Source: Stappia sp. ES.058 (GTDB lineage Bacteria; Pseudomonadota; Alphaproteobacteria; Rhizobiales; Stappiaceae). Taken from it: a DNA stretch of 64,000 bases. The DNA lies in NCBI RefSeq assembly GCF_900105595.1, contig NZ_LT629784.1, positions 4,259,001 to 4,323,000 on the forward strand, written 5' to 3'. The position numbers and the translations under genes were made by a program. Numbering within the stretch: the first letter of the stretch is position 1; every line of letters begins with the position of its first letter. The notes under the pieces are model-generated. The model was given only the letters and a program-made list of their open reading frames with translations. It was not told the origin of the DNA and did no database searches. Positions 38,125 through 46,062 of the stretch are shown here, one piece after another.

Positions 38125-40242
<2,118 letters not shown>

Positions 40243-40291
40243 GCGGGCTTTGTTCGCCGGTTGCGATTGTCGCGGCCGGCGAGAGATATCG

Positions 40292-40321
40292 AAAAAGCCG
40301 GGCATTCAGCCCGGCTTTTTT
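40292..40321 (+). terminator. Strong intrinsic terminator after pnp
   Basis: AAAAAGCCGGGC pairs perfectly with GCCCGGCTTTTT around a 5-nt loop. Its A- and T-flanked stem makes it bidirectional, also serving the convergent GGDEF-EAL operon. Confidence 0.9.
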
Positions 40322-40417
40322 GTTCCGGTTTCCGGATACGCGGCCGGCGGGATGCGACCGGGGCTTTGCGCATGGGCGTCATGCCTCATGCCTTGGGCAA
40401 GGGCCGGGGCCGGATCG

Positions 40418-43177
40418 TCAGGCGATGCCGCCCATGAGGGCCCTCTTTTCGACTCCGCGGTTCAGTAAGTCGATAAAGTCTTCTCCAGGCATCGGGCGCC
40501 CAAGATAATAGCCTTGGATGCTCGTGCAGCCGAGCGACTGCAAAAGCCGGCACTGGCCTTCACTCTCCGCACCTTCCGCGATGACCTTGATGTCGAGCCG
40601 CGCGGCCATGACCACGATCGCCTCGATGAGGGCGCGGTCGTTGCTGTTCGTTTCCAGATCGCGCACGAAGGTGCGGTCGATCTTCAGCGTGTCGATGGGA
40701 AACCGCTTGAGATTGCTCAGCGACGAGTAGCCCGTTCCGAAATCATCGAGTGAAAGGCGCACGCCAAGGTTCTTCATCGCGTGAAGGGTTTCGATCGGAT
40801 CGGAGGCGGTTTCATCGAACATCACGTTTTCTGTGATTTCAAGATGAAGGCTTTCTGCCGGCATGCCTGTGCTGGCGAGGGTGCCGCGCACCAGGTCGAC
40901 GAAGTTGTCGTCGCGGCACTGGCGGGGAGACACGTTGACGCTGATCATGGGCAATGTCAGGCCGCGCGCCACGCATTCCTGGTGGAACCGGCAGGCCTCC
41001 TCCAGCACCCAGGCTCCCAGCGGGACGATCAGGCCGGTGTCTTCCGCAATTGGAATGAATTCGGCCGGGGAATAGCTTCCCGTCTCGGCATCGTTCCAGC
41101 GCACCAGCGCCTCGCAGCCCAGGATGGTGTTGAGCTCCACGTCGACCACGGGCTGATAGTGCAGGCTCAGTCCCTTCTTCTCGAGCGTTCGACGCAGGGC
41201 GCCTTCGATCTCCATGGTGCGGGCGATGTGGTCGTTCATCTGGCCGGAGAAGAAGCGCAGCTTGTTCCCGCCATCGGCCTTGGCATGATACATCGCGGTA
41301 TCGGCCTGACGCAGCAGCGTTTCATCATTGTCGCCGTCATTGGGCGATACGGTCACGCCGATGCTGGCTGTCGTGAACACTTCCAGGCCACTTCCGACAA
41401 GCACCGGTTTGGCGACGGCCTTCAGGATCCGTGCCGTGCGCAGTTCCGCGTCCCAGACACTGCGCACCTCGGTCAAGATGATGCCGAATTCGTCGCCACC
41501 GAGCCGGGCTACGCTGTCATTGTCGTCCAGAACGGCGGTGATGCGCGTCGCCGTTGCCTTGATCAGTTCGTCGCCGGCATTGTGACCGAGGCTGTCGTTG
41601 ACGTTCTTGAAGCGGTCGAGATCGAGGAAGAGCAGCGCCACGAGACCACCGCCCCATTGGGCACGGGCAACCGACTGCACCAGCCGGTCCCGAAACAGGT
41701 TGCGGTTCGCAAGGCCGGTCAGACTGTCGAAATTCGCCTGGCGAATGATCAGCTCTTCCTGGCGCTTGCGCTCGGAGATATCCGCGATGGTGACATAGAA
41801 TGCGGTTTCGCGGTGCCAGAGGATCGGCCGTACATGCAACTCGGCCCAAAGGCGGCTGCCATCCTTGCACAATCCACGCGCTTCATAGACGGAAGGGACT
41901 GACACGCCGGCGCGCCGGGCCTTGTAATAGGAAAGCAGGCGCTGATGCTCCTCGGGCGCAAAAAGCGTTAACCCTGCCGCGCCGATCAGTTCATTGCGTG
42001 CATCGGCACTCTCATAGCCAAGGATATCAAGCAGCGCGTCGTTGACGTAGAGGATCTTGTGGTTGGCAATAATGCTGACGCCATGCATGGAGCCGTCGAT
42101 CAGACCGCGAAACTGCGCATCGGTCTCCTTGAGGTCGCGAAAGGCGTCCTGCAGGGCCGTGCCGAGCTTGTTGAATTCTTTTACTTTCCCCGGATGATAG
42201 GTCATATCGGGGCCACTCTGGCGGACCTGTTTGGCATAGGACATGAGGCGCTGCAGCGCAGGGCTGGTGACACGGTGCAATGCGTAGGCGGCCAGCAGCG
42301 ACCCGGCGATCACATAGAGCAGGAATGGAGCAAAGAGATCCTTGTATGTGGAGTGGATGTTTTTGATGGTTTCGCCTTGCCGGCCCGTGAGAACATAGGT
42401 TGGTACGCCGGAGACGTCCGCGCGCAGGGCGCTGCGAATGTATAGCCGATCGCCGATCAGTGTATGGTTCTGCTCCACGAGCGCGTTCGCGATCCGATCC
42501 GGATCGACCGCCTGACGGATATCGCCGACGGCGGCGATGATCTTATCGTGCGAGACAATCGCAAGGCTTTCCGCATCCAGGACATGCGACAGATCGCCGA
42601 GCAGTGAGATGCTGTCGTTGAGCACGAACCCGCCGACGACATGACCGAGCACACGGCCATCGCCGGCGTCCACAATCGGGATGGATTCCGCCGCAAGCAG
42701 GGTGAGTTCGCCGTTCAGGAAGCCGGAATGCATCTGCCAGATTCCGGTTGGCATTATTGCCCGCTGCGCGGCCGGCAGGATTCCCGTGATGTCGAACAGG
42801 GAAAAGCCGGCATCGACCCAGTCGGGCGTCCCTTCCCGGTCGATGAAAAGCAGCTCCAGCCGCCCGCCCATCGGGTGGCGGGCCGTCTCTTCAAGCACCT
42901 CTTTGAGTGCCGATGTATCCCCCGTGCGCACCGCCATCTGCAATGCACGGTTCTCGGCAAGCGAGCGCAGGAAGGTATCAAGCCGGCTCAACGACTGGGC
43001 GAACACGAGATTTGCGAGCGTGCTTTCCTTTTCGGCAAAGCGCCGCAACTCGCGATCGGCAATCGACAGGCTGCCGATGTAGCTTATGGAAAACAGAGCG
43101 GCCGATGTCGTCAGCAAGGCCACAGCAAACAGGCCAAGCACGAACCGGTTGAAGCTGAACGTCCGCCCTTTGATCAT
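40418..43177 (-). CDS. Membrane GGDEF-EAL protein with periplasmic sensor and PAS domain, partner of a LuxP-type binding protein
   Basis: A 919-residue inner-membrane protein. One helix (about 12-34), a large periplasmic region (35-282), a second helix (283-300), a short linker with HAMP-like features, a PAS domain (about 350-470), then GGDEF (GGDEF at 560-564) and EAL (EAL at 689-691, with DDFGTGYSSL and VIAEGAES). Both catalytic signatures are intact. The RxxD inhibitory site before GGDEF reads DDND, so product inhibition is probably absent. Its ATG overlaps the stop of the LuxP-like gene (ATGA). The arrangement mirrors LuxP-LuxQ, but the output would be cyclic-di-GMP rather than phosphorelay (inference). 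Confidence 0.92.
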   Translation of the reverse strand: MIKGRTFSFNRFVLGLFAVALLTTSAALFSISYIGSLSIADRELRRFAEKESTLANLVFAQSLSRLDTFLRSLAENRALQMAVRTGDTSALKEVLEETARHPMGGRLELLFIDREGTPDWVDAGFSLFDITGILPAAQRAIMPTGIWQMHSGFLNGELTLLAAESIPIVDAGDGRVLGHVVGGFVLNDSISLLGDLSHVLDAESLAIVSHDKIIAAVGDIRQAVDPDRIANALVEQNHTLIGDRLYIRSALRADVSGVPTYVLTGRQGETIKNIHSTYKDLFAPFLLYVIAGSLLAAYALHRVTSPALQRLMSYAKQVRQSGPDMTYHPGKVKEFNKLGTALQDAFRDLKETDAQFRGLIDGSMHGVSIIANHKILYVNDALLDILGYESADARNELIGAAGLTLFAPEEHQRLLSYYKARRAGVSVPSVYEARGLCKDGSRLWAELHVRPILWHRETAFYVTIADISERKRQEELIIRQANFDSLTGLANRNLFRDRLVQSVARAQWGGGLVALLFLDLDRFKNVNDSLGHNAGDELIKATATRITAVLDDNDSVARLGGDEFGIILTEVRSVWDAELRTARILKAVAKPVLVGSGLEVFTTASIGVTVSPNDGDNDETLLRQADTAMYHAKADGGNKLRFFSGQMNDHIARTMEIEGALRRTLEKKGLSLHYQPVVDVELNTILGCEALVRWNDAETGSYSPAEFIPIAEDTGLIVPLGAWVLEEACRFHQECVARGLTLPMISVNVSPRQCRDDNFVDLVRGTLASTGMPAESLHLEITENVMFDETASDPIETLHAMKNLGVRLSLDDFGTGYSSLSNLKRFPIDTLKIDRTFVRDLETNSNDRALIEAIVVMAARLDIKVIAEGAESEGQCRLLQSLGCTSIQGYYLGRPMPGEDFIDLLNRGVEKRALMGGIA

Positions 43178-44307
43178 TGCGAATAGCGAAACGCGTGGCG
43201 TTTAAGGGCTTCGATTCTCTCCGTGTCGTGATCCTGTGTGACGAGCGTAAACTCGCCGGAATATACCAGCGGCACATCGCCCGGACGATCCTGTTGATCG
43301 AGTGCGATCGCCTCTGCCATGGCGACGCCATTGTCGTCGTTCATGCGCATCACCGTGAAGGCGAGGCGACCCTTGGCGATCTCCTCCAGTTCCTGGCCGC
43401 CGCCGCCCCAGCCGTTGGTTCGCACCTTGCCGCGCAACCCGAGGCTGTCGATCGCATCGATCACGCCGAGCGCGATATCGGTGGAACAGGAGTAGATGAA
43501 GTCGACTTCGGGATTGCTTGCGAGAAGGGAAAGGGTTGCCGAGCGCGCTTTTTCACGGTTGAAACCGACATAGTAGGATGCGGCGAGATTCTTTTCCGGA
43601 CGCTTGGCCAAGGCCATGCGGAAGCTGTCGCCCCGCGCACTGCTGACGTAGCCGGGAGGGCCGTAGAGAATAGCAAAGTCCTGCAAGTCGGCGTTTTCTT
43701 CGCCCAGGATATGGTCGATCAGCAGCCTTGTCCCCTCGCTGTGGTCGAAGCCGACATAGAAGAACGGCTGCGCCTTTCGCCAGCTGCGAAGCGGCGTGGT
43801 GATGTTTTGCAGGATGACTTTGGGCCCGCGCCCGGAGATGAGCTGTTCAACGATCACGCGATGGCGGAAGGCGTCGAGCGTGAAGACGAGATAGTCGGGG
43901 TCTCGCGTCAGGGCTTCCGCAATTAACCGTGCCTGCTGGCGGATCTCGTTTCCAGGCCGCGTGAAGTGCGAATCGATCTCATGCGGAACGCCGATCTCCT
44001 GGAGCCGCGATTGGAGGGAAACGACACTGCGACGCCAGTAATCGGACGCTTGCACGCCGGGGTAGATTACGACGATGCGCAACGGTCGCGAGAATGCGGA
44101 CGGCTGTTCTTCGGCGGGTTCGGCGACCCGTTTCGCAAAGCGTTTCGCGACGATGGCCTCGCGCGGGTGGAGCTCATGGAATTCCCGGAGCGTCCAGTAG
44201 TCGCCCGACGTGGTTTCGTCGGCGACCGCTTCTCCAAACAGCACGAGCGGAAGGAGAAGCAGAGGCAGGAAGAGATGCTTTGGATCGCAAATAATTTTTA
44301 TTGTCAT
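43174..44307 (-). CDS. luxP: LuxP-type autoinducer-2 binding periplasmic protein
   Basis: A 377-residue periplasmic binding protein with an N-terminal signal peptide (FLPLLLLPLVLFGEAVADE). It matches Vibrio LuxP over its length: IVVIYPGVQASDYWRRSV, FTRPGNEIRQQ, ILQNITTPLRSW, ARGDSF, IYSCSTDIALGVIDA, NGWGGGGQEL, FTVMRMNDDNGVAMAEAI and a C-terminal RIEALKRHAFRYS. Residues equivalent to the LuxP AI-2 contacts are present: Q86, S88, W91, N168, R225, S275, T276, D277, W300 and R321. ATG 44307 gives a normal signal peptide; a TTG 21 codons upstream is also in frame. It lies directly upstream of the GGDEF-EAL gene with a 4-nt overlap. Confidence 0.88.
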   Translation of the reverse strand: MTIKIICDPKHLFLPLLLLPLVLFGEAVADETTSGDYWTLREFHELHPREAIVAKRFAKRVAEPAEEQPSAFSRPLRIVVIYPGVQASDYWRRSVVSLQSRLQEIGVPHEIDSHFTRPGNEIRQQARLIAEALTRDPDYLVFTLDAFRHRVIVEQLISGRGPKVILQNITTPLRSWRKAQPFFYVGFDHSEGTRLLIDHILGEENADLQDFAILYGPPGYVSSARGDSFRMALAKRPEKNLAASYYVGFNREKARSATLSLLASNPEVDFIYSCSTDIALGVIDAIDSLGLRGKVRTNGWGGGGQELEEIAKGRLAFTVMRMNDDNGVAMAEAIALDQQDRPGDVPLVYSGEFTLVTQDHDTERIEALKRHAFRYSQ

Positions 44308-44589
44308 GCTGCAAGTCCAAGCTTTGACTTTTATCGTCAAGACTTTGAATGATCCTATGCGTCGATTCAAGCATCATTCTCTCATTGAGGAATCATAAAT
44401 GACGGCATTCCTCCCGGGGTTGAATGCCGAGGATTTTTCCGTCGCGTATATTGCAAGAGTTAAGGGGTGTGCGGGGGCTCCCTTTTCTTCCAGGCGCCCG
44501 ATCCGTCGCCGGCTTGGCGGCAGGGTTCCCGTTGCGCAGATCGATCAAGCTGGTATACCGCCAGCGAACACTGACGGGAGTGACGGATC
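44308..44589. promoter_or_regulatory. Divergent control region between luxP and dapB
   Basis: This 282-nt gap must hold the promoters for luxP (leftward) and dapB (rightward). An inverted repeat CGGCATTC/GAATGCCG at 44403-44429 is visible. I found no convincing promoter on either strand. Confidence 0.4.
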
Positions 44590-45402
44590 ATGCCGAATAT
44601 GCATCTTGCCGTGGTCGGGGCAGGGGGCCGGATGGGCGGCGCCCTGATCCGCGCAATCGCCGATCTGGATGGCGTAGAGCTGTGCGGCGCGGTCGAGCGT
44701 TCCGGTGCGCCGGCGCTCGGCCAGGACGCCGGCGTTCTGGCCGGCCTCCAGCCGCTCGGCATTCCCGTCACCGACGATGCACTTTCGGTTTTTGCCAGGG
44801 CCGATGGCGTTCTCGACTTCACCGCTCCGGCTGCGACACGTGCATTTGCGGAGCTCGCCGCCCAGGCGCGCTGCGTTCATGTCATCGGCACCACCGGCAT
44901 GAGTGAGGAAGATGTCGCTGCGATCCGGCCGGCTGCCCGTCATGCGCGGATCGTCAAGTCGGGCAATATGAGCCTCGGCGTCAACCTGCTGGCGGCGCTG
45001 GTGCGCCGCGCGGCGGCCGCGCTCGACGAGGACTTCGACATCGAAGTCCTGGAGATGCATCACCGCCACAAGGTGGATGCGCCGTCCGGAACGGCACTGC
45101 TTCTGGGCGAGGCGGCGGCGGACGCGCGCGGGGTCGATCTCGGTGAGCGATCGGTGCGGGTGCGCGACGGGATCACCGGCGAGCGGCCGCGCGGCGACAT
45201 CGGATTTGCGACGTTGCGCGGCGGGTCGGTCATCGGCGATCACAGCGTGCTCTTTGCCGGCCCGCTGGAGACAGTGACGCTCTCGCATCACGCCCAGGAC
45301 CGGCAGATCTTCGCGCGCGGCGCCATCAAGGCGGCTCTTTGGGCCCGCGACAAGGCGCCCGGGCTCTATTCGATGGACGATGTGCTCGGCCTGTCTGACT
45401 GA
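44590..45402 (+). CDS. dapB: DapB, 4-hydroxy-tetrahydrodipicolinate reductase
   Basis: A 270-residue NAD(P)H-dependent reductase of the diaminopimelate/lysine pathway. The nucleotide loop is [10 protein letters not shown], and the catalytic and substrate-binding block is [20 protein letters not shown]. Gene length is normal. GGAG lies a few bases before the ATG. gpmA follows in the same direction after 39 nt. Confidence 0.97.
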
Positions 45403-45441
45403 CTGAACCCAAATCTTCCTGAATTCTAGGAGACCTCACCC

Positions 45442-46062
45442 ATGGACCATCTTCTCGTGCTCGTCCGTCACGGCCAAAGCGACTGGAACCTCAAGAACCT
45501 GTTCACGGGCTGGAAGGATCCGGACTTGACCGGGAAAGGCGTTGACGAGGCGCGTGCGGCCGGGCGCAAGCTCAAGGACATGAAGCTCGACTTTGATGTC
45601 GCCTATACCTCGGATCTGTCGCGCGCGCAGCGCACGCTGGCGCTGATCCTTGAGCAACTCGGTCACGAGGATCTGGAGACGGTCCGGGACGAGAGGCTCA
45701 ATGAACGCGACTATGGCGACCTGACCGGCATGAACAAGGACGAGGCGCGCGAGCGTTTCGGCGAGGAACAGGTGCACATCTGGCGCCGTTCCTTCGACGT
45801 GCCGCCGCCGGGTGGCGAAAGCCTCAAGATGACGGCCGAGCGCGTCCTGCCCTATTACCACAACGAGATCCTGCCGCAGGTGCTTTCCGGCAAGCGCGTG
45901 ATCGTCGCTGCCCACGGCAATTCACTGCGCGCGCTGGTGATGGAGCTTGAGGGACTGACACCGGAGGAGATCCTTCAGCGGGAACTGGCGACGGGCGCGC
46001 CGATCGTCTATCGCCTGACGGACGAGGGCAACGTGGCGTCCGTTCAGGATCTTGCCGACTGA
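45442..46062 (+). CDS. gpmA: GpmA, 2,3-bisphosphoglycerate-dependent phosphoglycerate mutase
   Basis: A 206-residue histidine-phosphatase-fold enzyme. [20 protein letters not shown] carries the phosphorylated His, and [19 protein letters not shown] the second catalytic His. It interconverts 3- and 2-phosphoglycerate. The length fits the short alphaproteobacterial form. AGGAG precedes the ATG. Confidence 0.96.

Follow-up and report, generated by a model that had tools for sequence, protein, structure and literature searches.

How might a bacterium without luxS respond to the autoinducer-2 (AI-2) of other species, and could the signal pass from receptor to second messenger within one pair of proteins? 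The question is raised by two minus-strand genes of Stappia sp. ES.058, whose complete genome measures 4.63 Mb. They lie in a stretch of 64,000 nucleotides (nt) (contig NZ_LT629784.1, positions 4,259,001 to 4,323,000), which is called the window hereafter and provides all coordinates, and they encode a LuxP-like binding protein followed by a membrane protein with GGDEF and EAL domains for the turnover of cyclic di-GMP (c-di-GMP). Because both halves are homologous to the LuxP-LuxQ receptor of Vibrio, the contact and catalytic residues are intact, the genes overlap and luxS is absent, the pair is likely to represent a two-gene AI-2-to-c-di-GMP switch, namely a LuxPQ receptor with PAS-GGDEF-EAL in place of its kinase half. 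A preliminary description of the window had proposed an AI-2 receptor paired with a c-di-GMP enzyme and perhaps used for eavesdropping, and this proposal is supported at the level of sequence and model. From the sequences we infer AI-2 as the ligand and its effect on c-di-GMP, a complex of LuxP with its partner, both enzyme activities and the eavesdropping itself.

The LuxP-type receptor and its LuxQ-type partner

The first gene (43174..44307, minus strand; list of open reading frames [ORFs]) encodes a LuxP-family AI-2 binding protein of 377 amino acids that starts with an ATG at 44307. An alternative TTG at 44370 would give a longer protein; the ATG is preferred because it results in a plain signal peptide and in a length equal to that of the 377-residue database record P0003. 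The probable Sec signal peptide comprises residues 1-29 (44221..44307), with a hydropathy peak at residues 5-30 and a cut placed by eye after AVA. The asserted match to Vibrio LuxP was borne out by a phmmer E-value of 1.7e-93 to structure 1JX6, with 156 identical among 336 aligned residues. All ten AI-2 contacts, which we take to be Q77, S79, W82, N159, Y210, R215, T266, D267, W289 and R310, are identical in the window protein. On sequence and fold it falls with LuxP as opposed to other sugar-binding proteins. Nine further Peripla_BP_4 matches of the genome, including two below the Pfam cut-off, served as a control: seven have no match to the LuxP profile and the remaining two share two and one of the ten contact positions.

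The second gene (40418..43177, minus strand; ORF list and Pfam) encodes the membrane protein of 919 amino acids and overlaps luxP by the 4 nt ATGA (43174..43177), exactly as described before; translation of the two is probably coupled. ATGA-type overlaps of 4 nt also occur in all 14 Stappia/Labrenzia/Roseibium-type loci of our sample (L003-L016), two of which are filed under other names (L003, Rhodobacteraceae bacterium; L014, Alphaproteobacteria bacterium). Pfam recognises four domains in the partner. Its LuxQ periplasmic domain (residues 37-249; 42431..43069) is located between two membrane helices predicted from hydropathy, the first at residues 11-35 (43073..43147) and the second at residues 280-301 (42275..42340), the latter within a long helix (269-321) of the structure model. 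It is followed by a PAS domain (residues 368-469; 41771..42076; PF13426, E 5.7e-12), a GGDEF domain (residues 481-639; 41261..41737; PF00990, E 7.2e-44) with an intact motif at residues 560-564, and an EAL domain (residues 660-895; 40493..41200; PF00563, E 1.8e-69). The motif check covered eight EAL positions, which we take to be the catalytic set, and all of them are intact.

The PAS, GGDEF and EAL domains of the preliminary description are thus confirmed, whereas its periplasmic sensor had not been recognised as a LuxQ domain. Neither dCache_1 nor GAPES1 matched the partner in Pfam at an E-value of 0.001. The claim that a GGDEF-EAL protein stands in place of a LuxQ kinase is correct for the output: the Pfam search for a hybrid histidine kinase found no HisKA, HATPase or receiver domain behind the sensor, and the same scan of a Vibrio LuxQ (L053) returned HisKA, HATPase_c and Response_reg. 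The sensor half of LuxQ is nevertheless retained, and the partner accordingly looks like a LuxQ sensor half joined to a new output half. Throughout the genome, the search for LuxQ-type domains revealed one, that of the partner.

Since the partner keeps this sensor half, the nearest relative of the pair is LuxPQ itself. In both systems the binding proteins are homologous and agree in their AI-2 contacts, the periplasmic LuxQ domains are homologous and the genes are adjacent in the same order, but kinase and receiver output in Vibrio contrasts with PAS-GGDEF-EAL output in a genome devoid of luxS. NspS-MbaA of V. cholerae, previously named as the nearest parallel, resembles the pair in function but uses a different binding protein. 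Its binding-protein gene likewise immediately precedes a membrane GGDEF-EAL gene, and periplasmic occupancy is described to set c-di-GMP (relevant passages of PMC8079147). However, NspS binds polyamines and MbaA carries the motifs SGDEF and EVL, whereas the window harbors a Peripla_BP_4 LuxP, a LuxQ-type periplasmic domain and two canonical catalytic motifs. The receptors CahR and YeaJ also connect AI-2 with c-di-GMP, within one membrane protein, but according to the passages concerned it is their own Cache or GAPES1 domain that binds AI-2 (PMC7584622, PMC12268683), whereas the pocket of the window system resides in a separate LuxP. For AsrK-AsrR of Vibrio furnissii, the pertinent text of PMC11796354 reports that AI-2 lowers c-di-GMP; this system differs in being a two-component relay, in which a dCache kinase acts through a response regulator of the phosphodiesterase type, and in preferring borate-free AI-2.

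The absence of luxS, previously noted for the window, extends to the whole genome and to all 87 family genomes searched; as a control, the same search found luxS in five of 14 named genomes. The genome contains S-adenosylhomocysteine hydrolase, a route that yields no 4,5-dihydroxy-2,3-pentanedione. Taken together, these two observations suggest that AI-2 would come from neighbors and that the signal sensed here is most likely that of other bacteria.

Distribution of the pair and of its output domains

LuxQ-type domains were detected in nine of 385 genomes from the class, 16 of 398 from the phylum and 38 of 87 from the family, each count including the genome of the window, and in all 14 genomes of the genus. 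A scan of named genomes provided 277 LuxP relatives, and the best 80 loci (L003-L082), a sample hence biased towards the query, were kept. Their partners are kinases in 48 cases (L068, L073 and L075 assigned by eye, V. owensii L076 by genus alone), GGDEF-EAL proteins in 19, LuxQ-type proteins without output domain in seven (Pfam scan of L020 only) and none recognised in six, two of which (L022, L047) reach a contig end less than about 200 bases from luxP. The pairing of LuxP with GGDEF-EAL is accordingly not unique to the window. Its 19 representatives comprise the 14 Stappia/Labrenzia/Roseibium-type loci as well as Oceanospirillum, Marinobacterium, Neptuniibacter, Zobellella and Oceanisphaera arctica.

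The ten contacts are completely conserved in 71 of the 80 loci, i.e. beside 46 of 48 kinases, 16 of 19 GGDEF-EAL proteins (one of the three misses is an unreadable base), all seven output-less partners and two of the six loci without partner. Among 120 listed database proteins, 104 retain all ten, the own record included. On the enzyme side, the GGDEF motif is intact in 19 of 20 partners examined, including those of the window and L003-L016, and the EAL catalytic positions are unchanged in all 20. The deviating partner, from Oceanospirillum beijerinckii (L061), has a degenerate NADEF motif and an intact EAL set.

The seven output-less partners (L020, L026, L042, L043, L044, L049, L071) belong to Oceanimonas and Oceanisphaera and consist of a LuxQ periplasmic domain and PAS, the latter apparently missing in L049; Zobellella and O. 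arctica of the same group retain GGDEF-EAL (Pfam reading of the group based on L020 and L041). LuxP is also found beside LuxQ-like histidine kinases far outside Vibrio, in records of Campylobacterota and Thermodesulfobacteriota (L033, L050, L063, L078 and L040, L051, L052, L054, L056, L058, L067). Passages of two earlier papers state that LuxP occurs only in Vibrio, and in the corresponding section of a survey from 2025, 267 LuxP proteins are listed, most of them from Proteobacteria (PMC12268683). A literature search for AI-2 or LuxP together with Stappia, Labrenzia or Roseibium gave no LuxP among the matches listed. Rezzonico and Duffy (2008; PMC2561040) reported LuxP without luxS, located beside a PAS-containing protein, in Neptuniibacter and Marinomonas and stated the idea of listening in; the passages on these genes describe the neighbors as presumed regulators of transcription or as another sensor kinase and do not mention c-di-GMP. 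In our sample, the partner is a GGDEF-EAL protein in a Neptuniibacter metagenome bin (L082) and was read as a kinase in Marinomonas MED121 (L073).

In the LuxP tree, GGDEF-EAL rows are found in three lineages among kinase rows. The starred branches force at least two changes of output, and parsimony counts four. A single clade of GGDEF-EAL and PAS-only rows is not rejected (approximately unbiased test, p-AU 0.0996); a clade of Stappiaceae and Oceanospirillaceae alone, a group named after the tree was seen, is rejected (p-AU 0.0254). The output-domain tree with paralogues does not reject one clade either (0.683), and the constrained tree even scores better; of its 55 paralogue loci, four were excluded because they duplicated partners, and 12 lacked a segment of more than 380 residues. 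Independent origins of the GGDEF-EAL output are therefore not established on LuxP or on the output domains, and we speak of its presence in three lineages rather than of three origins.

Proposed signal path and competing explanations

In the proposed switch, periplasmic LuxP would dock onto the membrane protein at its LuxQ-type double-Cache domain and close on borated AI-2 from other bacteria, thereby rearranging the dimer. The signal would pass through the second membrane helix and PAS and alter the balance between c-di-GMP synthesis by GGDEF and breakdown by EAL. In Vibrio LuxPQ, AI-2 is reported to make the receptor dimer asymmetric and to stop the kinase. By analogy, AI-2 might make it harder for the two GGDEF domains to pair; EAL would then win and c-di-GMP would fall, a direction towards which we lean slightly.

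Several findings weigh against this scheme. The arginine of the GGDEF inhibitory site is missing in the partner. Some Stappia relatives (L006, L013) carry Leu or His in place of the contact Tyr210, which is changed in eight of the 120 listed database proteins, and one same-genus genome (G462; 89% complete, 7% contamination; also the source of L110) keeps luxP in its usual place, intact and of full length (L205), with only four of ten contacts. Its product may be a receptor for a new ligand or for none. Of the 45 genomes in the sister genus (Roseibium-like), 24 contain the LuxQ-type domain and only six of these 24 a close luxP (E-value under 1e-90); the remaining 18 indicate that the enzyme can persist without luxP. 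In two further loci (L222, L223), a LuxQ-periplasm-PAS-GGDEF-EAL gene is located directly downstream of a gene for a TctC-family (PF03401) binding protein and luxP is missing there. The LuxQ-type domain alone therefore does not prove AI-2, and the evidence for this ligand is the LuxP pocket.

The receptor-less relatives allow a closer view of the role of LuxP. All 20 family genomes with a close luxP carry the LuxQ-type domain; 18 of the 38 family genomes with this domain lack a close luxP, and three of these 18 contain a LuxP-like protein of 30-33% identity elsewhere. Ten of the 18 loci were read (L094, L099, L112, L113, L115-L120): luxP was not found at these ten, and the dapB-like gene adjoins the orphan LuxQ-GGDEF-EAL gene. 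According to the tree, luxP must have changed its state at least twice, and the orphan enzymes were apparently left without their AI-2 receptor by losses on two or more branches. In distant pairs with luxP, periplasmic identity is 0.49-0.51 at a GGDEF identity of 0.50-0.51 (20 pairs), compared to 0.29 at 0.45 without luxP (23 pairs); these pairs are non-independent, and three (L011, L015, L016) of nine luxP-containing sister-genus rows are zero-distance copies of three others. This hints at a constraint of LuxP on the periplasmic domain. In distant pairs without luxP, however, the similarity of the PAS region is lower as well (0.52 versus 0.58-0.59), and close pairs (GGDEF identity over 0.9) exhibit no such effect, with periplasmic values of 0.94 without (4 pairs) and 0.88 with luxP (12 pairs).

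An enzyme that is largely LuxP-independent or constitutive, with LuxP as a dispensable modulator in the process of being lost, would agree with the luxP-less majority of the sister genus, the forced changes of luxP state, the dapB-like neighbor of the orphans and the behavior of close pairs. This explanation is very improbable in view of luxP conservation in all 14 same-genus genomes, the 4-nt overlap in all 14 named loci and, as a hint, the greater periplasmic similarity of distant pairs with luxP. Another ligand, a sugar or a different borate diester, could be bound and sensed instead of AI-2. The LuxP-like fold is that of sugar-binding proteins, position 210 and L205 document altered pockets at retained loci, and LuxP structures with other ligands, one of them a borate diester, are listed in the PDB (entries 4YR7, 4YP9). 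Nevertheless, the identity of all ten contacts in the window protein and in most kept loci, together with the far lower alignment scores of ribose and allose binders, leaves this a poor candidate.

A phosphodiesterase-only protein, with GGDEF as a GTP sensor and AI-2 tuning breakdown alone, agrees with the proposed switch except on the cyclase. The invariant EAL positions, the degenerate GGDEF of the distant L061 partner and the best NCBIfam matches of the window protein, which are phosphodiesterases below the cut-off, all fit. We nonetheless regard it as rather unlikely, given the intact GGDEF motif in all but one partner and the report, in the pertinent passages of PMC8079147, that MbaA needs both domains despite its deviating motifs.

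If the AI-2-to-c-di-GMP switch is real, its implications extend beyond the window. LuxP is usually described as feeding the kinase relay of Vibrio; here it would be wired to c-di-GMP in luxS-less marine alphaproteobacteria, and a bacterium may listen to its neighbors and change lifestyle in one step. A broader idea, to which we give somewhat less than even credence, is that LuxP and the LuxQ double-Cache domain form a movable AI-2 cassette. Evolution would have joined it to c-di-GMP enzymes on more than one occasion, in Stappiaceae, Oceanospirillaceae and Zobellella/Oceanisphaera, and thereby equipped marine bacteria without luxS with a direct switch for eavesdropping. The binding protein of such a LuxQ-type c-di-GMP protein could be swapped (TctC, two genomes), lost (sister genus) or kept with an altered pocket (L205), so that the cassette would be exchangeable at both ends. 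With a single ligand, a single gene each for receptor and enzyme, and one measurable second messenger, the question whether non-producers hear AI-2 becomes directly testable, and the natural series of intact pair, altered pocket, receptor-less enzyme and other binding protein could teach how a binding protein drives GGDEF-EAL.

Genomic setting and minor observations

The two genes are flanked by a divergent dapB-like gene (44590..45402, plus strand), whose homologue is located upstream of luxP in all 14 loci L003-L016, and by a convergent pnp-like gene (38125..40242, plus strand) with a homologue downstream in 13 of these 14; both were named by recognition. An Rfam scan of positions 40000-46000 gave nothing at the gathering score, and promoter and terminator scans of the locus revealed no excess over shuffled sequences.

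Six family genomes harbor a second LuxP-like protein away from the locus (L206-L211), which is 30-34% identical and has six to seven of the ten contacts. A LuxP fragment of 79% identity (P0014) is filed under the eukaryotic genome project jgi/Tetstr1, perhaps the alga Tetraselmis, and probably derives from a Stappia-like bacterium associated with the eukaryote.

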